The translations under genes and the position numbers were made by a program. Below are positions 25,807 through 40,821 of a stretch of DNA of 40,821 nucleotides, one piece after another (position 1 is the stretch's first letter; the number at the start of each line of letters is the position of its first letter). The notes below the pieces were generated by a model that was not told the origin of the DNA, did not search any database, and worked only from the letters and a program-made list of their open reading frames with translations. This DNA is from Thermoleophilia bacterium (GTDB taxonomy: Bacteria > Actinomycetota > Thermoleophilia > Gaiellales > Gaiellaceae), in NCBI GenBank assembly GCA_023382435.1, contig JAHDVS010000021.1, positions 1 to 40,821 on the forward strand. The letters run 5' to 3'.

Positions 25807-27203
25807 CGTGGGAGCCCGTGATCGGCCTCGAGATCCACGTCCAGCTGAAGACGCGCACGAAGATGTTCTGCCGCTGCGCGAACGTGTGGGGGGAGGACCC
25901 GAACACGCGCACCTGCCCGGTCTGCCTCGCCCACCCCGGCGTGCTGCCGGTGCCGAACCGCCGGGCGATCGAGTGGACGGTCAAGCTCGGGCTCGCGCTC
26001 GGCTGCGAGGTCGCGCCGCGCGCCGTCTTCGCGCGCAAGAACTACTTCTACCCCGATCTGCCCAAGGGCTACCAGATCTCCCAGTACGAGCAGCCGCTGT
26101 GCGGGCCCGGTCGGTTCGTCGTGCCGGGCCCCGCCGGCGACCACGAGATCGGGATCGTGCGCGCCCACCTCGAGGAGGACGCGGCGAAGACGATCCACGT
26201 CGGCGGCGCCGCCGGACGGATCCACGGCGCCGAGACGTCGCTGGTCGACTTCAACCGCGGCGGGACACCGCTCGTCGAGATCGTGTCCGAGCCGGACCTG
26301 CGGTCGGCCGAGCAGGCCAAGCGTTTCCTCCAGCTCCTGCGCCAGACCGTTGTCGAGCTTGGCATCTCCGACGCGGAGATGGAGAAGGGATCGCTGCGCT
26401 GCGACGCCAACGTGTCGGTGCGCCGCGCCGGCGAGGCCGGGTACCGCACCAAGACCGAGTTGAAGAACATGAACTCGTTCACGTTCGTCGCCCGTGGGAT
26501 CGAGGCGGAGGTGGAACGCCAGATCGCGACCTACGAGGCGGGGGGCGAGGTCGTGCAGGAGACGCTCCACTTCGACCCGCAAACCGGGTCGATCACGCCG
26601 CTGCGCTCGAAGGAGGAGGCGGACGATTACCGCTACTTCCCGGAGCCCGATCTCGTCCCGGTCGCGCCGCCCGCCGAGCTCGTCGCGAGCCTCGCGGCCG
26701 CGATCCCGGAGCTGCCGGGCGCGCGGATCCGCCGGCTCGAGCAGGAGATCGGCTTCGACCTCGCGGAGGGTCTCGTCACGAGCGGCCGGGACCGGCTCTA
26801 CGAGCGCGTCGAGGGCGACCGCCGCGCCGTCGCGAACGTGATCATGAACCAGCTCGCCGGTGCCGGCGTCGACACGGAGCGGGTCGACCCGGCCGAGCTC
26901 GGACGGCTGATCGAGGCGCGCGAGCGGATGCCGCGGACCGTCTTCGACGAGGCGATCGGCAGGGCGGCCGAGCCGGGCTTCTCCGCTGCCCCGTACCTCG
27001 AGCAGCAGGCGGTGTCGGACGCGGGCGAGCTCGAGCCCGCGATCTCGGCGGTACTGGCCGCCCACCCGGACCAGGTGGCCGCCTACCGTGGCGGCAAGGA
27101 CGGCCTGCTCGGCTTCTTCGTCGGCCAGGTGATGAAGGCGACCGGCGGCAAGGCGAACGCGCGGGTCGTCAGCGAGCTCGTCCGCGAGCGTCTCGGCGCG
27201 TAG
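25803..27203 (+). CDS. gatB: Asp-tRNA(Asn)/Glu-tRNA(Gln) amidotransferase subunit B
   Basis: 466 residues. The cradle domain begins WEPVIGLEIHVQLKTRTKMFC; zinc ligands are Cys23, Cys25, Cys38 and Cys41 (CRC and CPVC). YPDLPKGYQISQYEQPLC, DFNRGGTPLVEIVSEPD and RTKTELKNMNSF are GatB signatures. The C-terminal helical and YqeY-like tail (GKDGLLGFFVGQVMKATGGKANARVVSELVRERL) binds tRNA. It activates the tRNA-bound acid with ATP and adds ammonia from GatA. Start ATG 25803 overlaps the gatA stop. Its 3' end overlaps the convergent membrane-protein gene by 35 bases. Confidence 0.97.
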   Translation: MTWEPVIGLEIHVQLKTRTKMFCRCANVWGEDPNTRTCPVCLAHPGVLPVPNRRAIEWTVKLGLALGCEVAPRAVFARKNYFYPDLPKGYQISQYEQPLCGPGRFVVPGPAGDHEIGIVRAHLEEDAAKTIHVGGAAGRIHGAETSLVDFNRGGTPLVEIVSEPDLRSAEQAKRFLQLLRQTVVELGISDAEMEKGSLRCDANVSVRRAGEAGYRTKTELKNMNSFTFVARGIEAEVERQIATYEAGGEVVQETLHFDPQTGSITPLRSKEEADDYRYFPEPDLVPVAPPAELVASLAAAIPELPGARIRRLEQEIGFDLAEGLVTSGRDRLYERVEGDRRAVANVIMNQLAGAGVDTERVDPAELGRLIEARERMPRTVFDEAIGRAAEPGFSAAPYLEQQAVSDAGELEPAISAVLAAHPDQVAAYRGGKDGLLGFFVGQVMKATGGKANARVVSELVRERLGA

Positions 27204-27909
27204 AGCAGCCTCCGCGAGACCGGGTCTCCTCTGTCAAGGGGTCGGGCCCCTCCAGCGGGGCTCGACGATTCCCGACGCGATCGTCACGGGGCGGCCGCGT
27301 CGAGGCGACGAAGCCGCCGTAGAGGAGCAGGGCGGCGGCGGCGACGAACGCGGCCGTCTCGGCCTCGCCGAGGCCCGCGACCGCGCTGCCCGCCGCGGCG
27401 ACGGCGACGCCGGCGAGCAGGAGCACGTTTGCGAGCGGGCGGCGGCGCAGCGTCACGAGCGCGACCGCGACGACCGCCACGGTGCCGGCCGCGTTGCCCG
27501 CGATCGCGACGACGCGGGCCGGGAAGAGCTCCAGGTGCTCCTGGGCCTGCGGGATCGACGAGCCCGTGACCGGGCTCGTCAGCGGCGCTGCGAGGGCCAC
27601 GCCGATCGCGAGGCCCACGTACACGAGCCCCACCGGCGCCGCCAGCCTTCGCCCGGCGAGGAGCAGCGAGCCGACCCCGAGCAGCGGTGCCGTGAGCAGC
27701 CCGCCGAACAGGTAGTAGACACGGAACGCCCGGTCGTCCCAGCCGGCCGCCGCGCCCCAGGCGAGCGCGCCAGCCGCGATCGCGTACGCGGCCAGCGATG
27801 CCGACCAGGCGGCCAGGGCCGGGGCGCGCCGCGCCCGGTAGCGTCCGGCCAGGTCGCCGGCGAGCCGCAGCGCGAGCAGCGCGGCGGCGAACGCGAGCAG
27901 AGTCTCCAC
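27169..27909 (-). CDS. Hypothetical polytopic membrane protein
   Basis: 246 residues from GTG at 27909. About seven hydrophobic helices are visible: TLLAFAAALLALRLAGDLAG, AWSASLAAYAIAAGALAWGA, YYLFGGLLTAPLLGVGSLLLAG, APVGLVYVGLAIGVALA, VVAIAGNAAGTVAVVAVALV, LANVLLLAGVAVAAAGSAVAG and AAFVAAAALLLYGGFVA. A basic cytoplasmic tail of about 40 residues follows. I do not recognise the family. The tail overlaps the end of gatB on the other strand by 35 bases and contains a second copy of the AGGGGTCnG-type palindrome; the gene may be shorter in relatives. It is divergent from the DnaJ-like gene. Helix count and GC-rich third positions support a real gene. Confidence 0.75.
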   Translation of the reverse strand: METLLAFAAALLALRLAGDLAGRYRARRAPALAAWSASLAAYAIAAGALAWGAAAGWDDRAFRVYYLFGGLLTAPLLGVGSLLLAGRRLAAPVGLVYVGLAIGVALAAPLTSPVTGSSIPQAQEHLELFPARVVAIAGNAAGTVAVVAVALVTLRRRPLANVLLLAGVAVAAAGSAVAGLGEAETAAFVAAAALLLYGGFVASTRPPRDDRVGNRRAPLEGPDPLTEETRSRGGCSTRRDARGRAR

Positions 27910-27947
27910 GCGCGGAAGCGTAGAGGGGTGCCGGCAGACGCCGCCTG

Positions 27948-27953
27948 TACGCT
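27948..27953 (+). promoter_or_regulatory. Putative -10 box, DnaJ-like gene
   Basis: TACGCT ends ten bases before the GTG at 27964. The identical TACGCT precedes the class V aminotransferase gene. Confidence 0.45.
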
Positions 27954-27963
27954 GTCGTGCCAG

Positions 27964-28770
27964 GTGATCGCGCGCGCGAAACGCGACTACTACGCCGTGC
28001 TCGGCGTCCCGCGGGACGCCGGGCGCGACGCCATCAGGAAGGCCTACCGGAGACTCGCCAGCGAGTACCACCCGGACATCTCCGACGACCCGCGCGCCGA
28101 CGAGCGCTTCCGCGAGATCGCCGAGGCCTACGAGGTGCTGTCACGGCCCGAGTCGAGAGCCCGCTACGACCGCCTTGGCCACCGGCGGGGCACGACGGGG
28201 CTCGGGCGGCGATCGGCCGCAGGGCTCTTCGACGATCTCTTTGGCGGCGCCCCGCCGGGGTCGCCCCCGCGCCCCCGGCAGCGGGGAGGCGACGTCACCG
28301 TGCCGGTCAAGCTTGCGTCCGCGGACGCCGAGCAGGGCGGGCGGCGCGGTGTCCGCTACACGGCCGAGGCCGTCTGCGATGGCTGTGCGGGGACCGGCAC
28401 CGGCCCGGGTGGCGCGCGCTGCACGTGCCCCGCATGCCAGGGGGCGGGGTACGTGCGAGAGGCCGGGGCGAGCCGGGCAGGGCCGGTTCTGCGCTTCCAG
28501 CCGTGCGGTACGTGCCGGGGCGCCGGACGCATCGCAACCGTCCCCTGCTCCGAGTGTGGCGGCGCCGGCCGGCTCGACGAGGAGCGAGCGCTGCTCGTGA
28601 GCGTTCCCCCCGGCGCTCGCGACGGCGACGTCCTCACCATTCCCGGCGCCGGGCACGCGGGCGGAGCGGGCGGCGAGCCCGGCGACCTGCGCGTCGAGTG
28701 GCACGTGACCGCGGCGCCCGCCGGGCCACGGGGCCTCCTCGGCCGTCGCGTTCGCGCGCGCGGCCGCTGA
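27964..28770 (+). CDS. DnaJ-like co-chaperone, short C-terminus
   Basis: 268 residues, against about 375 for full DnaJ. The J domain (residues 7-71) has HPD at 36-38, which stimulates DnaK ATPase. A short Gly/Phe-rich link follows, then part of CTD I and a zinc region with four CxxCxGxG units (CDGCAGTG, CPACQGAG, CGTCRGAG, CSECGGAG). The C-terminus breaks off after DLRVEWHVTAAPAG with a short Arg-rich end, so the second half of the substrate-binding domain and the dimerisation helix are absent. Other frames do not restore them. It starts at GTG 27964. No dnaK or grpE lies nearby, so it is probably a secondary J-protein rather than the main DnaJ. Confidence 0.88.
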   Translation: MIARAKRDYYAVLGVPRDAGRDAIRKAYRRLASEYHPDISDDPRADERFREIAEAYEVLSRPESRARYDRLGHRRGTTGLGRRSAAGLFDDLFGGAPPGSPPRPRQRGGDVTVPVKLASADAEQGGRRGVRYTAEAVCDGCAGTGTGPGGARCTCPACQGAGYVREAGASRAGPVLRFQPCGTCRGAGRIATVPCSECGGAGRLDEERALLVSVPPGARDGDVLTIPGAGHAGGAGGEPGDLRVEWHVTAAPAGPRGLLGRRVRARGR

Positions 28771-28816
28771 CGGGGCCCGCAAGCGCCTCGGGTGCGGCCG
28801 AAGCCCGGCCTTGGGT

Positions 28817-28822
28817 TACGCT
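28817..28822 (+). promoter_or_regulatory. Putative -10 box, aminotransferase-serA operon
   Basis: TACGCT ends six bases before the GTG at 28829, so transcription should begin at the start codon. This fixes GTG 28829 as start rather than the in-frame TTG at 28811. Confidence 0.55.
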
Positions 28823-28828
28823 CAGGGC

Positions 28829-30001
28829 GTGACATCCAGCAAGGGCTACCTGATGACGCCGGGCCCCACGCCGATCCCGCCCGCGGTCGAGGCGGCGATG
28901 GCGTTGCCGGTCATCTACCACCGCGGCGCGGAGTTCCAGGAGGTGCTGGCCCGCGTGCTCGCCCGGCTCCGCGGCGTGTTCCGCACGAGCGGCGACGTCG
29001 TTCTCTTCACCGCCTCGGGCAGCGGCGCCATGGAGTCCGCGGTCGCGAACCTCTGCTCGCCCGGTGACCCGGTGTTGGTGGTCTCGGCCGGGAACTTCGG
29101 CGAGCGCTGGGCGCAGATCGCCAGGAGCTACGGGCTCGACGTCGACCATCTGCGCGTTCCGTGGGGGGAGGCACCCGATCCCGACGCCGTCGCGGAGCGT
29201 CTCGCCGGGCGCCGCTCGCGGGTCGTCTACTGCACGCACAGCGAGACGTCGACCGGCGTGGTCGCGGACGTGGAGGCGATCGCAGCCCGCGCCCGCGCCG
29301 CCGGAGCTCTCACCGTCGTCGACGCGATCTCCTGCCTCGGCGCCGTGCCGCTCGAGCCGGACGCCTGGGGCATCGACGTTGTCGTCTCCGGCTCCCAGAA
29401 AGCCTTGATGACGCCGCCGGGGCTCGCGTTTGCGTCGGTATCCGAGGCCGCGCGCGCGGCGGCCGCTGTCGCCACCTCGCCTCGCTTCTACCTCGACTGG
29501 GAGCGCGCGCTGCGGTCGCAGGTCGAGGCGCGCACGCCGTTCACGCCCGCTGTCTCCCTCGTGCGCGGCCTCGACGTCGCGCTCGAGCTGCTGCTCGCAG
29601 ACGGCCTCGAGGCAGCCTGGGAGCGATCTCGCTTGCTCGGCCGGGCATGTCGTGCCGGGGTGAGAGCGGCCGGTCTCGAGCTGTTCTCGCCCGATCACGA
29701 CAGCTCCGCGGTCGTGACCGCGATCCGCGTTCCCGACGGCGTCGACGGCGCCGCGATCGTCCGCTCGATGCGGGAGCGCTCCGGCGTCACGGCTGCCGGA
29801 GGGCAGGGCGAGCTGAAGGGGAGGATCGTCCGCATCGGCCACATCGGCTACGTCGACATCGACGACGTCGCCGCCGCCCTCGACGCGCTCGAGCTCGCGT
29901 TCGCCGAGGCCGGCAGCGCGGTCGAGCGGGGTGTCGCCGCTCGTAGCGCGCGCGCAGCCCACGATGCTGCTGCTGCGCGCGCCGGCAGACCCGGATCGTG
30001 A
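28829..30001 (+). CDS. Class V aminotransferase (alanine-glyoxylate / serine-pyruvate type), probable phosphoserine aminotransferase
   Basis: 390 residues, PLP fold type I, class V. It begins MTPGPTPIPPAVEAAM, a hallmark of the SPT/AGT group. The PLP lysine is Lys191 in SGSQKALMTPPG; ASGSGAMES and DAISCLGAVPLEPDAWGIDVV hold the cofactor. Family members move amino groups between alanine or serine and glyoxylate or pyruvate. Because its stop overlaps the serA start (GTGA), I infer that it works as the phosphoserine aminotransferase of serine synthesis, a role taken by this group in lineages without SerC. A tail of about 25 residues (ARSARAAHDAAAARAGRPG) extends past the family end. Confidence 0.9.
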   Translation: MTSSKGYLMTPGPTPIPPAVEAAMALPVIYHRGAEFQEVLARVLARLRGVFRTSGDVVLFTASGSGAMESAVANLCSPGDPVLVVSAGNFGERWAQIARSYGLDVDHLRVPWGEAPDPDAVAERLAGRRSRVVYCTHSETSTGVVADVEAIAARARAAGALTVVDAISCLGAVPLEPDAWGIDVVVSGSQKALMTPPGLAFASVSEAARAAAAVATSPRFYLDWERALRSQVEARTPFTPAVSLVRGLDVALELLLADGLEAAWERSRLLGRACRAGVRAAGLELFSPDHDSSAVVTAIRVPDGVDGAAIVRSMRERSGVTAAGGQGELKGRIVRIGHIGYVDIDDVAAALDALELAFAEAGSAVERGVAARSARAAHDAAAARAGRPGS

Positions 30002-31587
30002 GCGGGGAGCGTCCCAGAGTCCTCGTCCGCGAGCGGATCGCGGAGCCCGGTGTTGAGCTCCTGCGCCAGGACTTCGATGTGGATGTCGACTTCGACTCGG
30101 AGCTCGTGGAGCGGATCGGCGGCTACGACGCGCTGATCGTCCGCAGCGCCACCCGGGTCACCGCGGAGCTGATCGAGCGCGGGCAGCGCCTGAAGGTGAT
30201 CGGCCGGGCCGGCGTCGGCGTCGACAACGTCGACGTGGCCGCGGCGACGAAGCGGGGGATCCTCGTCGTCAACGCGCCCCAGTCGACGGTCGTGTCGGCC
30301 GCCGAGCATACGATCGGGTTGCTGCTCGGGCTCGCCCGGCGGATCCCGCAGGCGCACTGCGCGCTCAAGGAAGGCCGCTGGGAGCGCTCGCGCTTCGGGG
30401 GCGTCGAGCTCGCCGAGAAGACTCTCGGTCTCGTCGGCGTCGGCCGGATCGGCCAGCAGGTGGCGCGGCGCGCGCGTGGCCTTTCGATGCGCGTGCTCGC
30501 CTACGACCCGTTCGTCGCGCCCGAGCGGCTACGCGAGCTCGGTGTCGAGCCTGCGGAGACGCTCGATCAGGTGCTCGCCGAGTCCGACTTCCTCTCCCTG
30601 CACTCGACGCTCACCTCGGAGACGCGCGGGCTGATCGGCCGGGAGGAGCTCGCGCGTGCGAAGGACGGGATCGCGATCGTGAACGTCGCGCGCGGCGAGC
30701 TGATCGACGAGGAGGCGCTCGTCGAGGCGCTCGGCTCCGGCAAGGTCGCTGCGGCCGCTCTCGACGTCTTCTCCCGGGAGCCGTACACGGGACCGCTGCT
30801 CGAGCTCGAGAACGTGGTCGTCACGCCGCACCTGGGCGCGTCGACGCGCGAGGCGCAGGATCGCGCGGGCGTGATCGTCGCCGAGCAGGTTGCCGCGGCG
30901 CTCCAGGGCCGCGTCGCGACGAACGCCGTCAACGTCCCGGCGATCGCCCCCGAGGACGCGGACTTCCTCGGGCCGTTTCTCCCGCTCGCGAGCCTGCTGG
31001 GTGAGCTCGTGTTCGAGCTGGCGGGCGGATCCGTCACGCGGCTCGACTTCCTGCACGCCGGCGAGCTTGCCGAGCGGGACACGCGGTTGTTGACGGTCGC
31101 CGCGTTGAACGGCGCGTTTCGCGGCCGCGTCGAGGAGCACGTGAACCTCGTCAACGCACCGCTCGTCGCGCGCGAGCGGGGGATCGAGGTGCGCGAGGAG
31201 AGCCGCCGGGCCTCCAGGGACTTCACGAACCTGATCCGGATCACCGCGTTCGCGGGCGACCGGGAGATCGTCGTGGCGGGCACCACGATCGGCGCGGACA
31301 ACCGCCCGCGGCTCGTGCATGCGGTCGGATACGAGATCGAGGTCGACCTCGAGCCCCTGATGGTCTTCATCGTCAACTCGGATCGGCCCGGCCGGATCGG
31401 CCGAGTGGGCACGCTGCTCGGGGACGGAGGCGTGAACATCGCGACCATGACGGTGTCGCGCAACCGTCCGGGCGGGAACGCGCTGATGGTGCTGACGGTG
31501 GACACCCCTCTCCCTGCCGAGACGGCGGAGATGCTCCGGGCCGAGCCCGGATTCCTCGACGTCCGGCTGATCTCGCTCGAGGACTGA
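29998..31587 (+). CDS. serA: D-3-phosphoglycerate dehydrogenase
   Basis: 529 residues, the long type I SerA with allosteric and ACT domains. It oxidises 3-phosphoglycerate, the first step of serine synthesis. The NAD motif GVGRIG is at 147-152, and the catalytic residues are Arg232, Glu261 and His278. Residues about 310-445 form the intervening (ASB) domain. The C-terminal ACT domain (about 455-529, LMVFIVNSDRPGRIGRVGTLLGDGGVNIATMTVSR) is the usual serine-feedback site. It starts with GTG inside the stop of the aminotransferase gene. The YbaK-like gene follows 3 bases after the stop. Confidence 0.97.
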   Translation: MSGERPRVLVRERIAEPGVELLRQDFDVDVDFDSELVERIGGYDALIVRSATRVTAELIERGQRLKVIGRAGVGVDNVDVAAATKRGILVVNAPQSTVVSAAEHTIGLLLGLARRIPQAHCALKEGRWERSRFGGVELAEKTLGLVGVGRIGQQVARRARGLSMRVLAYDPFVAPERLRELGVEPAETLDQVLAESDFLSLHSTLTSETRGLIGREELARAKDGIAIVNVARGELIDEEALVEALGSGKVAAAALDVFSREPYTGPLLELENVVVTPHLGASTREAQDRAGVIVAEQVAAALQGRVATNAVNVPAIAPEDADFLGPFLPLASLLGELVFELAGGSVTRLDFLHAGELAERDTRLLTVAALNGAFRGRVEEHVNLVNAPLVARERGIEVREESRRASRDFTNLIRITAFAGDREIVVAGTTIGADNRPRLVHAVGYEIEVDLEPLMVFIVNSDRPGRIGRVGTLLGDGGVNIATMTVSRNRPGGNALMVLTVDTPLPAETAEMLRAEPGFLDVRLISLED

Positions 31588-31590
31588 CCG

Positions 31591-32076
31591 GTGCCGGGGC
31601 AGCTGCCCGAGCCGGTCGCCCGGGTCGCCGGCTTTCTCGCGGACGCACGGGCGGAGGCGCGTCTCGAGGAGTTCGAGGCGGGGACGCCGACGGCCGTGGC
31701 CGCAGCGGACGCCGTCGGCTGCCAGCCGGACCAGATCGTGAAGTCGCTCGTCTTCGTCTGCGACGGTGCTCCCGTGTTGGCGCTCGTCCCGGGCTCGCGC
31801 CGCGCCGACCCGAAGAAGGTCGCGGCGGCCGTCGGCGCCCGCTCGGCCCGGATCGCGTCCGCGGACGTGGTGCGGGAGGCGACCGGGTTCGACGTCGGCG
31901 GCGTCGCCCCGTTCCCGGCCCCCGGGGTCTCCCGGGTCGTCGCGGAGCGGACGCTACTGTCGTGGAGCACCGTCTGGGTCGGGGCGGGGTCGGAACGCCA
32001 CATGGCCGGGCTCGCGCCGGCCGAGCTCGTGCGGCTCGCTCACGCCGGCACCGCCGATCTCTGCCTCGACGCCTGA
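31591..32076 (+). CDS. YbaK/EbsC-family aminoacyl-tRNA deacylase
   Basis: 161 residues of the YbaK/ProX/INS domain family, which removes wrongly attached amino acids from tRNA (for instance Cys- or Ala-tRNA(Pro)). The conserved lysine is Lys51 in PDQIVKSLVFVCDG. DPKKVAAAVG, ATGFDVGGVAPF and the GAGSERHMAGLAPAELVRL end match the family. GTG at 31591 follows the serA stop by three bases. Which tRNA is edited cannot be told. The link to serine synthesis is only positional. Confidence 0.9.
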   Translation: MPGQLPEPVARVAGFLADARAEARLEEFEAGTPTAVAAADAVGCQPDQIVKSLVFVCDGAPVLALVPGSRRADPKKVAAAVGARSARIASADVVREATGFDVGGVAPFPAPGVSRVVAERTLLSWSTVWVGAGSERHMAGLAPAELVRLAHAGTADLCLDA

Positions 32077-32119
32077 ACCTCCGTCCGTCAGACTGTGCGG
32101 CACCCCGAAGGAGGCTGCC

Positions 32120-33274
32120 ATGCTTGTGGACGACTCGCGCACGACGCTCTATTTCGGCCCGTGGTACCGGCGCTCGCCGTTCTTCGAGGCGACACGCCGC
32201 CACGGCTGCCGGGCCTACGACGTCTACAACCACATGCTGCTGCCGGCCGAGTACGGCGACCCGGTCGAGGAGTACTGGCACCTGCTCGAGCACGTCACGC
32301 TCTGGGACGTCGGCGTCGAGCGGATCACGGAGATCACCGGTCGGGACGCCGCTGCGTTCACGAGCTTCCTGACCCCCCGCGACCTCTCCGCCTGCGCGGT
32401 CGGCCAGTGCAAGTACGTCGTCGTCACGGACGAGCGGGGCGGGATCGTCAACGACCCCGTGCTCCTGCGCGTCGAGGAGAACCGCTTCTGGCTCGCGGCC
32501 GCTGACAGCGACCTGCTCCTGTGGGCGAAGGGTGTCGCGGTCGGCTCCGGCTTCGACGTCGAGATCCGCGAGCCTGACGTCTCGCCCGTGCAGGTGCAGG
32601 GCCCGAAGTCGAAGGACGTGCTCGTGGCGCTGCTCGGCCCGTGGGTGCTCGAGCTGCCCTACTACCACTGCGCGGAGACCGAGCTCGACGGGATCCCGCT
32701 CGTGATCGGCCGCACCGGGTGGACGGGCGAGGTCGGCTACGAGCTCTACCTGCGCGACGGTAGCCGCGGCGACGAGCTGTGGGAGCGGGTGCTGGAGGCG
32801 GGCGCGCCGTTCTCGATCCGTCCGATCCCACCGTGCCAGGCGCGCAGGATCGAGGCCGGGATCTTCAACTACGGCTCCGACATGACGCTCGACGACAACC
32901 CGTTCGAGGTGTCGGGGCTCGAGCGGCTCGTCGAGCTCGACAAGGCGGGGCCGTTCGTTGGCAGGGAGGCGCTCGAGCGGATCGCGCGGGAGGGCGTCAG
33001 CCGCAAGCTCGTCGGGGTCGAGCTCGAGGGCGAGCCGCTCGCGTCCTGGCTCACCCACTACTGGCCGGCACGCCACGGCGGAGAGCACGTCGGGCACGTG
33101 ACCGATGCGATTCACTCGCCGCGCCTGGGCCGGAACATCGGCTACGTGTGGGTTCCGATCGACCTGGCCGAGCCCGGAACCTCGCTCGAGGTGGAGACGC
33201 CGGAAGGGACGACTGCCGCCAGCGTGGCAGCGCTTCCGTTCGTCGACCCGCGCAAGGAGACGCCGAAGCGCTGA
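32120..33274 (+). CDS. DmdA-like tetrahydrofolate-dependent demethylase (GcvT superfamily)
   Basis: 384 residues in the GcvT fold. It resembles dimethylsulfoniopropionate demethylase DmdA more than the glycine-cleavage T-protein: YNHMLLP (36-42), EEYWHLLEHVTLWDV (50-64), LTPRDLSACAVGQCKY, GGIVNDPVLLRVEENRFWLAAADSDL (107-132), SPVQVQGPKSKDVL and GRTGWTGEVGYELYL (197-211) follow DmdA segment by segment, including Trp where GcvT usually has Tyr in RTGYTGE. The C-terminal folate-binding barrel is complete. Enzymes of this group move a methyl or methylene group to tetrahydrofolate. Substrate may be DMSP, a methoxylated aromatic or a methylamine. AAGGAGG lies before the ATG. No dmdB, dmdC or dmdD is next to it. 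Confidence 0.85.
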   Translation: MLVDDSRTTLYFGPWYRRSPFFEATRRHGCRAYDVYNHMLLPAEYGDPVEEYWHLLEHVTLWDVGVERITEITGRDAAAFTSFLTPRDLSACAVGQCKYVVVTDERGGIVNDPVLLRVEENRFWLAAADSDLLLWAKGVAVGSGFDVEIREPDVSPVQVQGPKSKDVLVALLGPWVLELPYYHCAETELDGIPLVIGRTGWTGEVGYELYLRDGSRGDELWERVLEAGAPFSIRPIPPCQARRIEAGIFNYGSDMTLDDNPFEVSGLERLVELDKAGPFVGREALERIAREGVSRKLVGVELEGEPLASWLTHYWPARHGGEHVGHVTDAIHSPRLGRNIGYVWVPIDLAEPGTSLEVETPEGTTAASVAALPFVDPRKETPKR

Positions 33275-33291
33275 GCCCTGACGCGGCGCGG

Positions 33292-33297
33292 TAAGCT
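33292..33297 (+). promoter_or_regulatory. Putative -10 box, ilvE operon
   Basis: TAAGCT ends eight bases before the GTG at 33306; no Shine-Dalgarno site lies between, again fitting a leaderless start. Confidence 0.45.
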
Positions 33298-33305
33298 ACG
33301 GTCCC

Positions 33306-34241
33306 GTGGAGGCGACCCCGTACATCTGGATGAACGGCGAGCTGGTCGACTGGGACGACGCGACCGTCCACGTCGGCGCCCACGGCCTCCACTACGGCTC
33401 GGGGGTGTTCGAGGGGATCCGCTGCTACGAGACTCCCTCGGGCCCGGCGGTCTTCCGGCTGACCGACCACATGCGCCGTCTGCGCACGTCCGGTCGGCTG
33501 ATCCACATGGAGCTTCCCTACAGCGTCGAGGAGCTCGTCTCGGCGACCCACGAGTTGCTCTCGGCGAACGGTCTGCCCGCCTGCTACGTGCGGCCGATCG
33601 CCTTCTACGGCTACGGCACGCTGGGCGTGCCCCCGCGGCACAACCCGGTGTGCGTCGCGATCATGTCGTGGCCCTGGGGAACCTACCTCGGCGCCGAGGC
33701 GCTCGAGCGGGGGATCCACTGCAAGATCTCGAGCTGGCGCCGGGTGGGGCCGAACACGATCCCGCACGCGGCGAAGGCCACCGGCGTCTACCTCAACTCG
33801 ATGCTGGCGGTGCTCGAGGCGAGCGCGGGCGGCTACGACGAGGCGATCCTGCTCACCGAGGACGGAAACGTCGGTGACGGCTCCGGCGAGAACGTGTTCG
33901 CCGTCAAGGACGGGGTGATCTTCACCCCCGACCTGTCGGCGTCGATCCTGCCCGGGATCACCCGCGACTCGGTGCTGACGATCGCCCGCGACCTCGGCTA
34001 CGAGGTTCGGGAGCGGCCGTTGATCCGCACCGACCTGTACATGGCCGACGAGCTGTTCATGACCGGTACCGCCGCCGAGGTGACCCCGATCCGCGCGGTC
34101 GACGACCGCGAGGTCGGCGATCCCGGGCCGATCACGAGGGCGATCCAGACGACCTACCTCGAGGCGGTCACCGGGCGCGTAGACAGGTACGCGGAGTGGC
34201 TCGAGCACGTCCCGAGATCGTCGCCGGTCCCGGGCAGCTGA
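33306..34241 (+). CDS. ilvE: Branched-chain amino acid aminotransferase
   Basis: 311 residues, fold type IV PLP enzyme, usual IlvE size. It transfers amino groups between glutamate and the 2-oxoacids of leucine, isoleucine and valine. The PLP lysine is Lys157 in NTIPHAAKATGVYLNSMLA. HYGSGVFEGIRCYET (29-43), EAILLTEDGNVGDGSGENVF and MADELFMTGTAAEVTPIRAVDDR are IlvE signatures. GTG start at 33306. Its end overlaps the start of the DegT-type gene by 46 bases in another frame. It supplies the oxoacids that the E1 complex at the left edge could oxidise, though the genes are far apart. Confidence 0.95.
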   Translation: MEATPYIWMNGELVDWDDATVHVGAHGLHYGSGVFEGIRCYETPSGPAVFRLTDHMRRLRTSGRLIHMELPYSVEELVSATHELLSANGLPACYVRPIAFYGYGTLGVPPRHNPVCVAIMSWPWGTYLGAEALERGIHCKISSWRRVGPNTIPHAAKATGVYLNSMLAVLEASAGGYDEAILLTEDGNVGDGSGENVFAVKDGVIFTPDLSASILPGITRDSVLTIARDLGYEVRERPLIRTDLYMADELFMTGTAAEVTPIRAVDDREVGDPGPITRAIQTTYLEAVTGRVDRYAEWLEHVPRSSPVPGS

Positions 34242-35353
34242 CCGTTCCGCTGTCGCGGCCGTTCCTCGGCGAGCGCGAGGAGGCGCTCGTGCTCGAGGTG
34301 CTGCGCTCCGGTCGCCTCTCGCTCGGCCCCTGGGTCGACCGCTTCGAGCGGGCGCTGGCCGAGCGAGTCGGCGCGCCGTACGTGGCCGCGGTCTCGAGCG
34401 GCACCGCCGGGCTGCATCTCTGCTGCCGGCTCGCCGGCCTCGGCCCCGGGGACGAGGCGATCACGTCGCCGTTCTCGTTCGTCGCCTCGGCCAACTGCGC
34501 GCTCTACGAGGGCGCGACGCCCGTGTTCGCGGACGTCGACCCGCGCACGCTGAACCTCGACCCGGACGCGGTCGAGGCCGCGATCACCCATGCCACGAAG
34601 GCGATCGTCGCCGTCGACATCTTCGGCTACCCGTGCGAGCTCGGGCCGTTGCGCGAGCTCGCCGACCGCCATGGACTCGCCCTCGTCGAGGACGCCTGCG
34701 AGGCGCTCGGAGCGTCCTACCGGGGCCGGCCGGTCGGCTCGTTCCCTCACCCGGCCGTGTTCGCGTTCTACCCGAACAAGCAGATCACGACCGGGGAGGG
34801 CGGGGCGGTCGCGGTGCAGACGGAGGAGGAGTGGCGGCTCCTCAAGAGCCTCTCGAACCAGGGTCGTGCCGACTCGGGCGGGTGGCTCGAGCACGCTCGC
34901 TTCGGCTACAACTACCGCCTCTCAGACGTCGCCGCTGCGATCGGGCTCGCCCAGGTGGAGCGGCTCGACGAGATCCTCGAGCGCCGGGCGGCGGTGGCGG
35001 CCCGCTACGGGACGCTGCTGCGAGGGGTGGACGGGGTGGAGGCGCTCGCCTCCGACGACGCCGAGCACGGTCGTTCCTGGTTCGTCTACCCGGTGCGCCT
35101 GGCCGCCGGGATCGACCGGGAGGCCGTGATCGCTCGCCTCGGCGAGCGGGGCATCGGCACAGCCCGCTACCTGCCCTCGATCCACCTGCAACCGTACATG
35201 CGCGAGCGTTTCGGCTACCGGGAGGGAATGCTGCCCGCGTCCGAGGCGGCGAGCCGCGAGCATCTCGCGATCCCGTTCCACACCGGGCTGACCGCGGAGG
35301 AGCAGGATCTCGTCGTCTCCGAGCTTGCCGCGGCGCTCGAGCTCGCGACCTGA
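34196..35353 (+). CDS. DegT/DnrJ/EryC1/StrS-family sugar aminotransferase
   Basis: 385 residues, PLP enzyme of the nucleotide-sugar aminotransferase family. The conserved core is visible: VPLSRPFLGEREEALVLEVLRSGRLSLGPWV (17-47), SSGTAGLHL (67-75), VEDACEALGASYRG (164-177), and PLP lysine Lys195 in FYPNKQITTGEGG. NYRLSDVAAAIGLAQ follows. These enzymes make amino sugars from keto-sugar nucleotides for surface glycans or glycosylated metabolites. No sugar-pathway genes lie next to it. The only usable start is GTG at 34196, inside the ilvE end, so translation is coupled and the ~15 residues before VPLSRP are unusual. Confidence 0.9.
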   Translation: MARARPEIVAGPGQLTVPLSRPFLGEREEALVLEVLRSGRLSLGPWVDRFERALAERVGAPYVAAVSSGTAGLHLCCRLAGLGPGDEAITSPFSFVASANCALYEGATPVFADVDPRTLNLDPDAVEAAITHATKAIVAVDIFGYPCELGPLRELADRHGLALVEDACEALGASYRGRPVGSFPHPAVFAFYPNKQITTGEGGAVAVQTEEEWRLLKSLSNQGRADSGGWLEHARFGYNYRLSDVAAAIGLAQVERLDEILERRAAVAARYGTLLRGVDGVEALASDDAEHGRSWFVYPVRLAAGIDREAVIARLGERGIGTARYLPSIHLQPYMRERFGYREGMLPASEAASREHLAIPFHTGLTAEEQDLVVSELAAALELAT

Positions 35354-35360
35354 GCGAACG

Positions 35361-35954
35361 GTGCCTGCGGACGCGTGCGTGACCCCCCAGCCGCTCGGAC
35401 GCGGCTTCTTCGCCCGCTCGGTTCACGAGGTCGCCCCCGAGCTCGTCGGTTGCACGCTCATGGTCAGCGGCGCCGGCGGGCGGATCGTCGAGGTCGAGGC
35501 ATACGACCCGGACGACCCGGCGAGCCACGGTTACCGCGGCGAGACGGCCCGGAACCGCTCGATGTTCGGGCCCCCCGGGCACGCCTACGTGTACCGCTCG
35601 CACGGCCTCCACTGGTGCCTCAACCTCGTCTGCGATCGCGAGGGCCGGGCGAGCGCGGTCCTGCTGCGGGCGCTCGAGCCGGTGGCCGGGCTCGTCGAGA
35701 TGGCCGCCCGGCGCGACCGCGATCATGCGCGGCTTCTCTGCGCGGGGCCCGGGCGCCTCTGTCAGGCGCTCGCCATCACCGGCGAGCATGACGGGCTCGC
35801 GCTCGACGAGGCCCCGTTCGCCGTCTTCCCGCGCGACCGTCCCGTCGAGGTCGCGACGGCGCCGCGGATCGGGATCAGCCGCGCCGTCGAGCTCGAGTGG
35901 CGCTACTGCGAGCGTGGAAGCCGCTTTCTGTCGCGGCCGCTCCCGTCTCGCTGA
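35361..35954 (+). CDS. 3-methyladenine DNA glycosylase (AAG/MPG type)
   Basis: 197 residues from GTG at 35361; a GTG at 35379 is an equally possible start. This is the AAG/Mpg family, which flips out and removes alkylated purines such as 3-methyladenine and hypoxanthine. The catalytic glutamate is Glu46 in RIVEVEAYDPDDPASHGYRG. NRSMFGPPGHAYVYRSHGLHWCLNLVC (the intercalating Tyr/His region) and CAGPGRLCQALAITGEHDG are family signatures. It follows the aminotransferase by seven bases and ends nine bases from the convergent PBP gene. It acts in base-excision repair. Confidence 0.95.
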   Translation: MPADACVTPQPLGRGFFARSVHEVAPELVGCTLMVSGAGGRIVEVEAYDPDDPASHGYRGETARNRSMFGPPGHAYVYRSHGLHWCLNLVCDREGRASAVLLRALEPVAGLVEMAARRDRDHARLLCAGPGRLCQALAITGEHDGLALDEAPFAVFPRDRPVEVATAPRIGISRAVELEWRYCERGSRFLSRPLPSR

Positions 35955-35962
35955 CAGTGCCG

Positions 35963-38401
35963 TCAGGAACCCGCGCCGCCGACGACGAGCCGCACGGTCA
36001 TCTCCGACGCGCCGGCGACGCCGGCTCGGGGGCTCTGCGAGACGACGACGCCCGGCTCGTCTTCCGGGGAGAACTCGACCTGCGGCGTGAGCTCGCGGTC
36101 GGCGAGGCGCCGGCGGGCCTCGTCGAGCGTCAGGCCGACCACGCGCGGGACGACGATTCCGGCGGTCGACTTCGCCACGATCAGCCGAACCGTGTCGAAC
36201 GCGGCGAGCGTACCGCCCTTCGGTTCCTGTTCGAGCACCACCCCGACCGGCTCGAGCGGCTTGGCCGGCCGCACGATCACATCCCACTGGAGCGGCTGGG
36301 CCGCGAGTCGCTCCTGCGCGATCTCCACCTTCGCGCCGATCACGATCGGGACCGCGACCTCGTTGGGCTTGCAGTCGGCGATCTGTGTCGGCTCCGAGCC
36401 GCCGAAGAACTCGAGCGTGTACGTGTCGCGGCACTGGCCGTTGTCGCGCATCCACTGGCCGTCGCGCACCGCGATCCGGATCGGTGCCGTCCATCCGTAC
36501 GACGGCTCGGGGAACGCCTGCGGCTCCTCCTCGAGCAGCTCGAGCGCCGACTTCATGAACGTCCGCCAGATCAGGGCAGGGTACGTCCCGCCGGCGACCG
36601 GGTCGCCGCGGAACTCGGTCAGCATCGGTTGCAGCCGGTCCGGGTAGCCGACCCAGACCGCCACCGACAGCTGCGGCGTGTAGCCGACGAACCAGGCGTC
36701 GCCGTAGTTCTCGGTGGTACCGGTCTTCCCGGCGACCGCCCGATCGCCGAGCTGCGCGCGGCGGCCGGTGCCCTCGCTGACGACGCCCTGGAGGATCGAG
36801 GTCAGGATCGCCGCGGAGCCCGCCTCGAGCACCTGCCGGTCGACCGGCGCGTTCGCGTCCAGCCGGCCGCGGTCGCGCACCGCGAGCACCGAGCGCGGGA
36901 GGTTGCCGAGCAGCGACCCGTCGACGCGCGCGCCCCCGTTCGCGAAGGTGCCGAACCCGCGCGCCATCTCGAGCGGGTTGACCGCCTCGGCGCCGAGGCC
37001 GATCGCGAGGAAGTTGTCGAGCGGGCTCAGGATCCCGAGCCGGTGGGCCATCCGAGAGACCGCCTGCGGGCCGAGCTGGGAGGTGAGCTGCGCGTAGACC
37101 GTGTTGTCGGAGTAGATCGTCGCCTCACGTAGGTCGATGCGCCCGAGGTAGGCGTTCTCGTAGTTGCGCACGGCCCAGAGCTTGTCGCCGAGTGAGATCA
37201 CCTGCGGCTTCGACTCGTAGGTCGTGGTCGGGGCCACGCCCCGGTCGAGCGCGGCGGCGAGCACGAACGGCTTGAACGACGAGCCGGGCTGCCGCTCGCC
37301 CTGGACGGCCAGATTGAACTGACTCTTCGAGTAGCCGTCGCCGCCGACCATCGCGAGCACGCGCCCGTCGCGCGGGTCGATCGCGACGAGCGCCGCCCGG
37401 GGCCCGTCCGGATCGGGCAGCCACTTGTCGACCGCGTCGCGCGCGAGCTTCTGGAGCTCGAGATCGAGGGACGTGTACACCTCGAGGCCGCCGCCGTAGA
37501 CCTTGCCCGAGCCGTAGTAGCGGATCAGCTCGGCCTTCACGTACTCGGCGAAGTACTGGGCCGGGCCGCGGGTGCCCGGCAGCCGCACCTGATCGGGGCT
37601 CGGGAGCGGCGCCGCCCGCGCCGTGTCGTACTGCGAGCGCGTGATCAACCCCTGGCCGAACATCAGCGCGAGCACCGTGTTGCGGCGCAGGCGCGCGCGG
37701 GTCGGGCTCGAGATCGGATCGTACGCGGACGGGTTCTGGTTGATGCCCGCGAGCAGCGCCGCCTCGGGCAGGGTGAGATCGACCGCGCTCTTCTGGAAGT
37801 AGACGCGGGCCGCCATCTCGACGCCGTAGGCGCCGTTGCCGAAGTAGATCGTGTTCAGGTACGCGGTCAGGATCCGGTCCTTCGACCAGCGTCGCTCGAG
37901 CTGCCAGGCCAGCGCCGCCTCCTTCAGCTTGCGGCTGACCGTCCGCTCCGGCTCGATGTAGGTGTTCTTCACGAACTGCTGCGTAATCGTCGAGCCGCCC
38001 TGCACGAGCTCCTTGTTGCGGACGTCGGTCCAGATGGCGCGGAGGATTCCGCGCAGGTCGACGCCGCGGTGCTCCCAGAAGCGACGATCCTCGACGGCGA
38101 CGATCGCCTGCTTCATCACCGGCGCGATCTTGTCGGGCTCGACGAGCACGCGTGCCTCGTCGCCGCGCAGCACCGCGAGGACGGTTCCGTCGGCGGCGTA
38201 GATGTAGCCGTTGCGCTCGACCCGCTTCTTGTTCGCCGGGTCGAGCGAGGGGATGTCGCTCGCGATCGCGGTGACGAACCCGAACGTGAACGAGGCCGCG
38301 CAGGCGAGGCCGAGAACGGCGAGGAGGAGGAGGAACCGGGGCTTGCGGATCCGGCGCCGCGGCCTGGACGGCCCGTCCTGCGTGCGTCTGCGCCGGAGCA
38401 C
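35963..38401 (-). CDS. Class A penicillin-binding protein (PBP1A-like) with PASTA repeats
   Basis: 812 residues from GTG at 38401. A basic cytoplasmic N-terminus is followed by one membrane helix (about 23-47). The GT51 glycosyltransferase domain has catalytic Glu104 in VEDRRFWEHRGVD and GGSTITQQFVKN. The transpeptidase domain has Ser374-x-x-Lys377 (PGSSFKPF), SDN at 431-433 and KTG at 559-561. The C-terminus carries two PASTA repeats (about 683-812: VPIVIGAKVEIAQERL and VPRVVGLTLDEARRRLAD), which bind wall precursors. It polymerises and cross-links peptidoglycan on the outer membrane face. The start is set by a TACAAT box nine bases upstream; the frame stays open further up but without coding character. 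Confidence 0.95.
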   Translation of the reverse strand: MLRRRRTQDGPSRPRRRIRKPRFLLLLAVLGLACAASFTFGFVTAIASDIPSLDPANKKRVERNGYIYAADGTVLAVLRGDEARVLVEPDKIAPVMKQAIVAVEDRRFWEHRGVDLRGILRAIWTDVRNKELVQGGSTITQQFVKNTYIEPERTVSRKLKEAALAWQLERRWSKDRILTAYLNTIYFGNGAYGVEMAARVYFQKSAVDLTLPEAALLAGINQNPSAYDPISSPTRARLRRNTVLALMFGQGLITRSQYDTARAAPLPSPDQVRLPGTRGPAQYFAEYVKAELIRYYGSGKVYGGGLEVYTSLDLELQKLARDAVDKWLPDPDGPRAALVAIDPRDGRVLAMVGGDGYSKSQFNLAVQGERQPGSSFKPFVLAAALDRGVAPTTTYESKPQVISLGDKLWAVRNYENAYLGRIDLREATIYSDNTVYAQLTSQLGPQAVSRMAHRLGILSPLDNFLAIGLGAEAVNPLEMARGFGTFANGGARVDGSLLGNLPRSVLAVRDRGRLDANAPVDRQVLEAGSAAILTSILQGVVSEGTGRRAQLGDRAVAGKTGTTENYGDAWFVGYTPQLSVAVWVGYPDRLQPMLTEFRGDPVAGGTYPALIWRTFMKSALELLEEEPQAFPEPSYGWTAPIRIAVRDGQWMRDNGQCRDTYTLEFFGGSEPTQIADCKPNEVAVPIVIGAKVEIAQERLAAQPLQWDVIVRPAKPLEPVGVVLEQEPKGGTLAAFDTVRLIVAKSTAGIVVPRVVGLTLDEARRRLADRELTPQVEFSPEDEPGVVVSQSPRAGVAGASEMTVRLVVGGAGS

Positions 38402-38410
38402 GGGTCGCGA

Positions 38411-38416
38411 ATTGTA
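38411..38416 (-). promoter_or_regulatory. Putative -10 box, PBP gene
   Basis: TACAAT on the minus strand ends nine bases before the GTG at 38401. It is close to the ideal TATAAT and supports that start. Confidence 0.55.
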
Positions 38417-38438
38417 GCCGTGACCGTGCGGGCGTCCG

Positions 38439-39230
38439 GTGCTGGACGTGACGGCGCGCGTGCCGCGTGCGATGATCGCGGCGGCGATGCTCGGCCTCGA
38501 CGACAGGATCGCGGCGCTCTCAGACGGGGTCTCCATCTGGGTCGTGATCGCGGTCGCCGCCCTGCTCGGCCTCCGCCACGCGACCGATCCCGACCATCTC
38601 GCCGCGGTCACGTCGCTCGTCGCCGGCGGGGACGAGGGTGCCGGCCGGGGCGCCGGGCGGCTCGGCCTCTTCTGGGGGCTCGGCCACGCGGCGACCCTGT
38701 TTGCCTTCGGGCTCCCCGTCGTCGTGCTCGGCGAGTACCTGCCCGAGCCGGTGCGGCGGGGTGCCGAGACCGCGATCGCGCTCGTGATCATCGCTCTCGC
38801 CGTCCGGCTCCTCCACCGCTGGCGTACCGGTCGCTTCCACATCCACGAGCACGAGCACCGCGGCGTCAGTCACGTGCACGTCCACGGGCATCCGGAGCGG
38901 TCAGACCACGATCATCCGCACCGCGGCCGCACGCCGCGCGGCGCGTTCGCGATCGGGCTCCTGCACGGTCTGGGCGGCAGCGCCGGAGTCGGTGTCCTCC
39001 TGCTCGCCACGGTCGAGTCGGCGGCGCTCGCCGCGGTCTCGCTCGTTCTGCTCGCGCTGTTCACGGCCGTCTCGATGACGGTGCTCTCGACCGGGTTCGG
39101 CGCCACGCTTGCCTCCCGGCGGGTCCGACCGGCGCTCCACCGCCTGGCGCCGCTGCTCGGGGTCGGGAGCCTCGCGTTCGGCGTCTGGTACGGGCTCGGC
39201 GCGCTCGACCTCGCCCCGCACGTCCTCTAG
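38439..39230 (+). CDS. Nickel/cobalt transporter (NiCoT/NicO-type) with His-rich loop
   Basis: 263 residues with about six or seven membrane helices. The metal signature H-x4-D-H is present as RHATDPDHLAAV (46-57), and LFWGLGHAATLFAFGLP follows in the next helix. A His-rich hydrophilic loop (about 134-165: HIHEHEHRG, HVHVHGH, HDHPHRG) lies between helices and probably captures Ni or Co on the cytoplasmic side. Family members take up, or in some cases export, nickel or cobalt. The start is uncertain: GTG at 38439 or ATG at 38472 (MIAAAMLGLDDRI). It is divergent from the PBP gene with only 37 bases between starts. Confidence 0.85.
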   Translation: MLDVTARVPRAMIAAAMLGLDDRIAALSDGVSIWVVIAVAALLGLRHATDPDHLAAVTSLVAGGDEGAGRGAGRLGLFWGLGHAATLFAFGLPVVVLGEYLPEPVRRGAETAIALVIIALAVRLLHRWRTGRFHIHEHEHRGVSHVHVHGHPERSDHDHPHRGRTPRGAFAIGLLHGLGGSAGVGVLLLATVESAALAAVSLVLLALFTAVSMTVLSTGFGATLASRRVRPALHRLAPLLGVGSLAFGVWYGLGALDLAPHVL

Positions 39231-39252
39231 CCGACCCGCCGGGGCCGGCCTC

Positions 39253-39258
39253 TAGAAT
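39253..39258 (+). promoter_or_regulatory. Putative -10 box of tyrS
   Basis: TAGAAT ends nine bases before the tyrS ATG. No Shine-Dalgarno site is visible in the gap. Confidence 0.5.
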
Positions 39259-39267
39259 CGGACGGCA

Positions 39268-40440
39268 ATGACGGTTGCCGCGCTCGAGGCTCTGACCCGC
39301 AACGCCGTGGACGTGCTTCCCCATGGCGAGCTCGCCCGCAAGCTCGAGCGGGGCCGCCCCCTGCGTGTGAAGCTCGGGATCGATCCCACGGCGCCGGATA
39401 TCCACCTCGGGCACACGGTCCCGCTCGGCAAGCTGGCGGCGTTTCAGCGAGCCGGGCACACGGCCGTTCTGATCGTCGGCGACTACACGGCCCGGATCGG
39501 CGATCCCTCGGGGCGCTCGAAGGAACGCCCCGTGCTCTCGACCGAGGAGCTCGACGCGAACGCTCGGACATTCGCGGAGCAGGCGTTCCGGATCCTGGAC
39601 CGGGAGCGCACCGAGGTTCGCTACAACAGCGAGTGGCTGGGGCAGCTCGACTTCGCCGGAGTGCTGGGGCTGACGAGGACGACGACCGTGGCGCGGCTGC
39701 TCGAGCGGGACGACTTCGCGCGGCGGCTGGCGGCCGAGGAGCCGATCTCGATCTCCGAGCTGCTGTATCCGCTGATGCAGGGTTACGACTCGGTCGCGAT
39801 CGAGGCGGACGTCGAGCTCGGCGGTACCGATCAGCTCTACAACCTGCTGTGCGGGCGCGACGTGATGGAGGCCTACGGGCTCGAGCCCCAGGTAGCCCTG
39901 ACGCTTCCGATTCTCGTCGGCACGGACGGACGGGACCGGATGTCGAAGTCGAAGGGGAACTACATCGGCGTCGCCGAGCCGCCCGAGGAGCAGTTCGGGA
40001 AGCTGATGTCGATCCCGGACACGGCCACCGCGGACTACTGGCGGCTGTGCCTGGACGAGGAGCCTCTCGCCGGCGAGCCGATGGAGGTGAAGCTCGGGCT
40101 GGCCCGGCGGATCGTGCGCCGCTACCACGGCGAGGAGGCGGCAGTCGTCGCCGAGGCGCACTTCACGCGCGTCGTGCGCCGCCACGAGGCCCCCGAGGAG
40201 GTGCGGGAGGTGCGGGTTCGCGCGGAGGGCGAGTCGGCATGGCTGCCGGGGCTGCTGCGCACGTGGTTCGACCTTCCCTCGACGAGCGAAGGGCGCCGTC
40301 TGGTCGAGCAGGGCGGCATCCGGGTCGCGGGCGCCGTGGTCAGGGACGAGCGGGTGCCGTGGGGGAGCCTCGACGGGGCGCTCGTGCAGGCCGGGAAGCG
40401 CCGGTTCGCACGGGTCGTGGTCGAGTCGCCCTCCGCTTGA
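39268..40440 (+). CDS. tyrS: Tyrosyl-tRNA synthetase
   Basis: 390 residues, class I synthetase that charges tRNA(Tyr). The HIGH motif reads HLGH (46-49) and the KMSKS motif RMSKS (224-228). GIDPTAPDIHLGHTVPL, GDYTARIGDPSGRSKERP and GGTDQLYNLLCGRD are typical of the second bacterial TyrRS subfamily (TyrZ-like). A C-terminal S4-like RNA-binding domain (about 320-385, LVEQGGIRVAGAVVRDERV) is present. ATG at 39268 sits nine bases after a TAGAAT box. The stop codon TGA is part of the -35 box of the rRNA promoter. Confidence 0.96.
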   Translation: MTVAALEALTRNAVDVLPHGELARKLERGRPLRVKLGIDPTAPDIHLGHTVPLGKLAAFQRAGHTAVLIVGDYTARIGDPSGRSKERPVLSTEELDANARTFAEQAFRILDRERTEVRYNSEWLGQLDFAGVLGLTRTTTVARLLERDDFARRLAAEEPISISELLYPLMQGYDSVAIEADVELGGTDQLYNLLCGRDVMEAYGLEPQVALTLPILVGTDGRDRMSKSKGNYIGVAEPPEEQFGKLMSIPDTATADYWRLCLDEEPLAGEPMEVKLGLARRIVRRYHGEEAAVVAEAHFTRVVRRHEAPEEVREVRVRAEGESAWLPGLLRTWFDLPSTSEGRRLVEQGGIRVAGAVVRDERVPWGSLDGALVQAGKRRFARVVVESPSA

Positions 40441-40464
40441 CAGGTCACGGCGCGCTGCTATCAT
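40437..40464 (+). promoter_or_regulatory. rRNA operon promoter
   Basis: A perfect TTGACA -35 box (40437-40442) and TATCAT -10 box (40459-40464) are 16 bases apart. The -35 box contains the last bases of tyrS, including its TGA stop. This is the strongest promoter sequence in the window, as expected for an rrn operon. Transcription should begin near 40471. Confidence 0.8.
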
Positions 40465-40561
40465 TCCCTCGCTGCCTCGCGGCCGCACCTTGGAGTCTGG
40501 GAACCTTCGACCTCGGAGAGCCCTTCAGCTAGAAGCCTCGAACTCGATTCGCTTCTACCGG

Positions 40562-40596
40562 AGGGCCTCTGATGTGAGTCGGAGGCCTTTCTTCTG
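40562..40596 (+). terminator. Terminator-like hairpin in the rRNA leader
   Basis: A GGCCTC/GAGGCC stem (40564-40569 with 40582-40587, extended by weak pairs) is followed at once by TTTCTTCT. About 95 bases after the predicted start point, it could act as an attenuator or end stray transcripts from tyrS. Confidence 0.5.
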
Positions 40597-40616
40597 GGCG
40601 GGGCCGGGCGGTGCGG

Positions 40617-40628
40617 TCTTTGAAAACT
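40617..40628 (+). promoter_or_regulatory. boxA-like antitermination site
   Basis: TCTTTGAAAACT matches the boxA region found in rRNA leaders and spacers of Gram-positive bacteria, where NusB/NusE bind the RNA and prevent early termination. It lies about 150 bases before 16S rRNA. Confidence 0.6.
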
Positions 40629-40748
40629 CAACAGCGCAACGCGTTCGAGAACGCCTCGTGTGCTTCGGCATGCGGGGCTCACACTAAGAGCCCTGTCGCG
40701 GGAGGATCGGTGTACCCGTGGCAGGTCTCTCCCTGAACTGACAGTGAC

Positions 40749-40764
40749 CCGCCCTTCGGGGCGG
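40749..40764 (+). other. UUCG-capped hairpin before 16S rRNA
   Basis: CCGCCC-TTCG-GGGCGG is a perfect six-base-pair stem with a very stable UUCG tetraloop, 13 bases before the expected 16S start. It may help fold or process the precursor. Confidence 0.6.
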
Positions 40765-40777
40765 AGGCTGACAGCTT

Positions 40778-40821
40778 TTCACGGAGAGTTTGATCCTGGC
40801 TCAGGACGAACGCTGGCGGCG
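40778..40821 (+). rRNA. 16S ribosomal RNA (5' end, partial)
   Basis: The universal bacterial 16S start, AGAGTTTGATCCTGGCTCAG, begins at 40785, and GACGAACGCTGGCGGCG follows, which is typical of actinobacteria. By alignment with E. coli numbering the mature 5' end is near 40778, to within a few bases. The gene runs off the right edge. Confidence 0.97.

Follow-up and report, generated by a model that had tools for sequence, protein, structure and literature searches.

DmdA is a folate-dependent enzyme of marine bacteria that acts in the breakdown of DMSP, and genes matching it serve as a survey marker for DMSP demethylation. In the accessible part of PMC5395565, DMSP demethylation is described as restricted to Alphaproteobacteria. 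Only four THF-dependent GcvT homologues had been characterised as of 2017, according to the available portion of PMC5547118. In SAR11, two GcvT-like genes located near metF or a betaine transporter are described in the available sections of PMC3160333, where their roles are proposed and untested. One of these, SAR11_1265, is described as close to dmdA and next to metF, and the authors guessed that, when DMSP is broken down, it handles the second methyl group. The other, SAR11_1303, was proposed for glycine betaine metabolism. In addition, 'non-DmdA' homologues from a marine genome set (MarRef) are described in the accessible text of PMC7487153 as a sister group of DmdA, with a partly DmdA-like modelled structure and a function left unassigned there; their likeness to the protein discussed below is one of description only. 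No report of a THF-dependent betaine demethylase was found in a search limited to open-licence PMC papers.

The gene and its surroundings

The window, that is, the whole stretch of DNA that was analysed (40,821 nucleotides), is the entire contig C21 of the host genome, a Thermoleophilia bacterium assembly of 2.73 Mb in 79 contigs. On its forward strand, an ORF of 384 aa runs from an ATG at 32120 to a stop at 33272-33274 (32120..33274, +), and its product is predicted to be a DmdA-like THF-dependent methyltransferase/demethylase. The Pfam domains GCV_T (PF01571, 145.5 bits) and GCV_T_C (PF08669, 68.3 bits) both score above cut-off and place the protein in the GCV_T aminomethyltransferase superfamily. 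The place and strand of the ORF given in the sequence-only reading, and the seven segments quoted there, were all recovered, the segments in order. A longer mechanical ORF from a GTG at 31766 was set aside, since the N-termini of the homologues fit the start at ATG 32120 instead. Judged by sequence comparison, the gene is real and its resemblance to DMSP demethylase is far beyond chance.

The gene is part of a same-strand run, with which it may be co-expressed. This run consists of a class V aminotransferase gene (28811..30001, +; supported by profile matches, start codon provisional), serA for phosphoglycerate dehydrogenase (29998..31587, +; 621 bits against a cut-off of 454), a gene for a YbaK-type aminoacyl-tRNA editing domain protein (31591..32076, +), which lies directly upstream of the DmdA-like gene with a gap of 43 bp, the DmdA-like gene itself, and ilvE for a branched-chain aminotransferase (33306..34241, +), directly downstream with a gap of 31 bp. 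The gene had been described as standing beside serA; serA is indeed close, but the ybaK-type gene intervenes. No catabolic partner adjoins the gene, a scan of its neighbours gave no gcvP or gcvH, and no dmdB, dmdC or dmdD is present in the searched stretch 24120-40821. The gene's own neighbours give no direct clue to the substrate, for which indications come from the relatives only. In three relatives (L052, L054 and L055), serA and an aminotransferase gene are near the DmdA-like genes within the same 12-17 kb, and L052 and L054 also carry ilvE there. The genomic place of the window gene is thus shared with other actinobacterial MAGs and looks inherited. The possibility that the gene's role is linked to serA was weighed and dropped, as this shared place yields no mechanism.

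The supposition that the genome is probably non-marine agrees with its nearest named relatives, which are mostly MAGs from soil, sediment and groundwater. Within the same GTDB family, a best match of at least 57% identity to the window protein was observed in 4 of 60 other genomes, and at the order level matches at E 1e-90 were observed in 14 of 129 genomes, the host genome included. The distribution of the DmdA-like gene in the family and order is therefore patchy. Viral contigs searched with the window protein gave no match. In one genome of the same family (L032 and G060:C90:4911-6049), the DmdA-like gene is split between different ORFs, with 68% identity to the window protein in one piece and 50% in the other, which points to a frameshift or decay. 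Also, the host itself has a second, distant paralogue on the DmdA side (L033:8939-10192), about 38% identical to the window protein, which forms a long basal branch of the superclade.

Position in the superfamily and relation to marine DmdA

In a tree of 99 rows, the window protein shares a clade with DmdA (support 100/99), to the exclusion of GcvT, Tdm, DMGO and SoxA-like proteins, and a constraint that groups it with two GcvTs lowers the likelihood by 92 log units (AU p 3.2e-7). The earlier assignment to the DmdA side of the GcvT superfamily is thus upheld. It had been noted that a place inside true GcvT, or a genome with no other GcvT together with gcvP/gcvH beside this gene in relatives, would speak against that assignment; neither was observed, and the host has a separate gcvT, of which a fragment closes contig C56 in the vicinity of gcvPA. 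The NCBIfam GcvT models score 170.4 and 145.9 bits on the window protein, below their cut-offs of 300 and 235.85. The best match among PDB sequences is Pelagibacter DmdA (3tfh, E 1e-75), followed by Bacillus subtilis GcvT (1yx2, 3e-42). The AlphaFold model (pLDDT 91.7) has the same DmdA as its top PDB match (Z 47.8, TM 0.92/0.95, 35% identity). For the T-proteins the Z scores are 38-43, for DMGDH and DMGO 42-44 and for LigM 31; the absence from this list of a family such as Tdm is not read as its exclusion.

The T-proteins share with the window protein the fold, the folate domain, the TGE motif and a conserved Asp, but belong to another clade and differ at the first Asp of a DD pair, which is replaced by Asn111 in the window protein. 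N111-D112 is encoded at 32450..32455 (+), and all examined clade members have Asn at position 111, where the two aligned GcvTs have Asp. The idea that the GcvT catalytic Asp is lost was dropped, since D112 is kept and aligns with D96 of Thermotoga maritima GcvT, presumably the catalytic Asp of that enzyme, and with D552 of dimethylglycine oxidase; only the preceding Asp has become Asn. The aryl O-demethylases LigM and DesA are alike in THF-dependent demethylation and in fold. However, they are larger proteins, and their NCBIfam models score very low on the window protein (35.4 and 46.7 bits against cut-offs of 580 and 800).

Three groups are present in the superclade. Clade I contains DmdA, including the protein of Phaeobacter inhibens DSM 17395 (annotated as DMSP demethylase and encoded beside dmdD), as well as certain plasmid-encoded proteins of Phaeobacter, Loktanella and Lichenihabitans. 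Clade II (37 rows, support 93/91) contains the window protein and lineages from soil or groundwater. Clade III contains 42 rows, plus two haloarchaeal ones, from halophilic actinobacteria, Halomonas and others. The window protein is thus one of a large DmdA-like family that is uncharacterised and within which marine DmdA has the look of a specialised offshoot.

The likeness to the DmdA of Pelagibacter ubique (3tfh) and P. inhibens DSM 17395 includes clade, fold, domain order and the positions of 3tfh Y32, Y95, N107, D108, Q156, W197, E204 and Y206, which are kept, whereas identity to both proteins is 35-36%. The best NCBIfam model is that of DMSP demethylase (NF009133, E 8.9e-106), at 353.9 bits against a cut-off of 410. 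Six residues (3tfh A154, F178, S195, K199, Q200 and G201), in columns chosen post hoc after about 60 columns had been viewed, are present in 5/5 DmdA-group proteins and in none of the 94 other superclade members, the window protein included. The five had been selected for their structure, their annotation, their operon or their position in the tree, and one of them (L122) is without a dmd operon. At these positions the window protein has Q158, Y182, T199, G203, E204 and V205. A narrow joint clade of the window protein with the DmdA group alone was rejected only marginally (p 0.048). On account of the score and the six residues, the window protein, by its sequence, is not DmdA in the strict sense. 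The DmdA-like identity proposed earlier is therefore retained for the superclade but not for DmdA proper.

The segment RTGWTGE had also been listed as DmdA-like, which it is not: T-G-W-T-G-E (residues 199-204, 32714..32731, +) is the GcvT-like form, with TGE where the DmdA group has SKQ, within SG(W/Y)SKQGG. Its Trp matches 3tfh W197. In the accessible part of PMC7487153, W171 is described as key for DMSP, and E178 and Y180 as folate-binding; by residue spacing, these would correspond to W197, E204 and Y206 of 3tfh and to W201, E208 and Y210 of the window protein. As a marker of DMSP, however, Trp201 was ruled out, since Tyr is present at that position in two of the five DmdA-group proteins, those of Marinovum and P. 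inhibens, so W201 is uninformative on DMSP. The position holds Trp in 37/37 clade II and Tyr or Phe in 42/42 clade III proteins. At the position of 3tfh S122, Ser is present in 5/5 DmdA-group and 42/42 clade III proteins, and the window protein has Ala (A126, 32495..32497, +, from the alignment).

Genes around the relatives and in the host genome

A scan of genome contigs gave 268 relatives, of which the best 80 were used, at 79 loci; L029 and L030 were left out as copies of L072 and L074. Neighbours were counted by tblastn, as the ad hoc gene caller misses or mis-frames some genes. Within the sampled flanks, clade III loci have MetF in 33/42 cases, formate-THF ligase (Fhs) in 25/42, SoxB in 21/42 and SoxA in 20/42, from loci that represent at least 10 named families, with several genera repeated and with unequal flanks. 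Within 1 kb, MetF is present in 32/42 and Fhs in 23/42. A dimethylglycine-oxidase-like gene is found within the flanks in 30/42; its count within 1 kb (7/42) comes from a seed of the N-terminal half only and is not used as evidence. In L113, this flavoprotein scores 878 bits to dimethylglycine oxidase over residues 2-822. A Rieske probe gave no match at the clade III loci. Since the DmdA-like gene is clustered with dimethylglycine oxidase and sarcosine oxidase genes, the step from betaine to dimethylglycine would fall to the DmdA-like protein. The neighbours encode the steps downstream of betaine demethylation and the oxidation of 5-methyl-THF, which leaves the betaine step without another candidate in the regions searched. 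The haloarchaeal and Lichenihabitans relatives have MetF and folD close by. SAR11_1265 has a metF neighbour as in clade III, and both SAR11 genes are, in the available sections of PMC3160333, uncharacterised members of the aminomethyltransferase family; they are likened to the DmdA-like family by description and not by sequence.

Among the 37 clade II loci, MetF and Fhs were each found once and dimethylglycine oxidase not at all, so the clade III context is not directly transferable to the window protein. In addition, the Trp of clade II against the Tyr or Phe of clade III at the W197 position indicates that the substrates may differ. The betaine-type neighbours within clade II are few and scattered, and were counted without a background rate. 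In L039, which is among the two relatives nearest to the window protein, the DmdA-like gene is downstream of a betaine-type Rieske gene, of which the best PDB titles are a ring-hydroxylating dioxygenase (3vca), a monooxygenase/demethylase (4qup) and carnitine monooxygenase. A 53% relative of this Rieske protein and Fhs are encoded near the DmdA-like gene of L087, and in L061 a nearby MttB matches the glycine betaine methyltransferase 9yce. In L078 and its order-mates L149, L150 and L152, a flavoprotein gene of the histamine/trimethylamine-dehydrogenase type is beside the DmdA-like gene (the PDB match was run on L149). In the closest relative, L040, the DmdA-like gene is among ribosomal-protein genes.

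The host genome encodes an MttB that resembles glycine betaine methyltransferase and flavoproteins of the histamine/trimethylamine-dehydrogenase type, in three full-length and two contig-end copies (contigs C32, C8, C2, C16 and C71). On one contig, a type III glutamine synthetase, a SoxA-like protein, formate-THF ligase and a formate-dehydrogenase-like subunit are encoded together. Elsewhere (L156, G000:C7), a RACo-like corrinoid activator is beside a MetF-type protein with DUF5981, adjoined by a pterin-binding protein; together with MttB, these likely form a corrinoid-dependent demethylation system. One match was found for homocysteine S-methyltransferase-type proteins and one for MTHFR-type proteins (48.7 bits), and the sole match to an OpuAC-type binding protein is weak (22.0 bits). 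SBP56 was not found in the host genome, and a search of it for Rieske proteins, run without a positive control, gave no match. This gene set would be in keeping with the use of methylated amines by the host; it does not show the role of the window enzyme.

Candidate substrates

THF-dependent demethylation is the most likely function of the window protein, and betaine-type (quaternary) amines are the leading substrate class, a reading given a probability of roughly one half. It would bind THF and a small methylated cation, as in DmdA, and pass a single methyl group on to the N5 atom of THF with no change in redox state, yielding 5-methyl-THF and the demethylated compound. In the setting of the window, this 5-methyl-THF could feed methionine synthesis, or it could alternatively undergo oxidation through MetF and formate-THF ligase, both encoded elsewhere in the host genome. 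The suggestion that the protein may demethylate another methylated compound than DMSP is plausible from the neighbours of the relatives, but is not supported by the gene's own neighbours. A betaine-type quaternary ammonium compound is most likely the better candidate class when set against DMSP.

Demethylation of DMSP outside the marine group, with plant- or microbe-derived DMSP in soil as the substrate, would fit the best NCBIfam and PDB matches and the Trp that is equated with W171 in the accessible part of PMC7487153. The Phaeobacter and Loktanella plasmid relatives, with their enoyl-CoA hydratase and acyl-CoA synthetase genes, could also resemble a dmdB/dmdD set. This explanation is nevertheless judged unlikely: the score is below the DMSP demethylase cut-off, all six DmdA-group residues are absent, the Trp does not single out DmdA, one weak DmdB match (29% identity) and no DmdC or DmdD came from the 37 clade II loci, and the host genome has no SBP56 match and DmdC matches of only 28-37%. 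Another methyl donor could provide 5-methyl-THF for methionine synthesis, such as a thioether or sulfonium compound (S-methylmethionine) or a methoxylated aromatic. The place of the gene within an amino-acid biosynthesis run is in line with this, and so is the single MTHFR-type protein of the host, next to which an extra source of 5-methyl-THF could help. The low LigM and DesA scores and the lack of an aromatics-related gene among the neighbours listed for the examined relatives argue against it, and such a donor seems rather improbable.

Tertiary N-methyl amines of the dimethylglycine/sarcosine type might be processed with a flavoprotein to 5,10-methylene-THF, in the manner of the folate domains found in the oxidases of dimethylglycine and sarcosine. 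The window protein shares the fold of those domains, D112 has its counterpart in DMGO, and amine-oxidising flavoproteins adjoin relatives. However, the dimethylglycine-oxidase-like partner in clade III has a folate domain of its own (L113, residues 2-822), and the tree keeps the window protein off the DMGO/SoxA side, so that there is only a small chance of this function. A diverged glycine cleavage T-protein, to which the common Pfam domains and the TGE motif could point, is highly improbable in view of the rejected joint clade, the scores below the GcvT cut-offs and the separate gcvT near gcvPA.

If the betaine reading is true, common microbes of soils and salt lakes would have a direct route from betaines to 5-methyl-THF that does not depend on oxygen. 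It is conceivable, though somewhat doubtful, that there is a large family of THF-dependent betaine demethylases in soil archaea, Actinomycetota, Chloroflexota, Gemmatimonadota, Armatimonadota and Proteobacteria, with the marine DMSP demethylase as one late specialised branch. Such a family would provide, with neither oxygen nor a corrinoid, an alternative to Rieske monooxygenases, betaine-homocysteine methyltransferase and MttB. Outside the sea, a large share of the wider family is without the DmdA-group residues and context, and could be miscounted as DmdA in surveys.

Two further arrangements were observed among the relatives. On three Phaeobacter/Loktanella plasmids (L118, L120 and L121; one typed as conjugative), genes encoding proteins 51-52% identical to the window protein are part of the run lrp, DmdA-like gene, osmC, enoyl-CoA hydratase and acyl-CoA synthetase. 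The DmdA-like proteins of L118 and L120 are without the DmdA-group residues, and the run is possibly a second demethylation pathway. In soil 'Euryarchaeota' MAGs (L041, L042, L043, L044, L045 and L048), three strong DmdA-like matches are in tandem at each locus, and in L041 these are adjoined by a dimethylargininase/arginine-deiminase-like gene.
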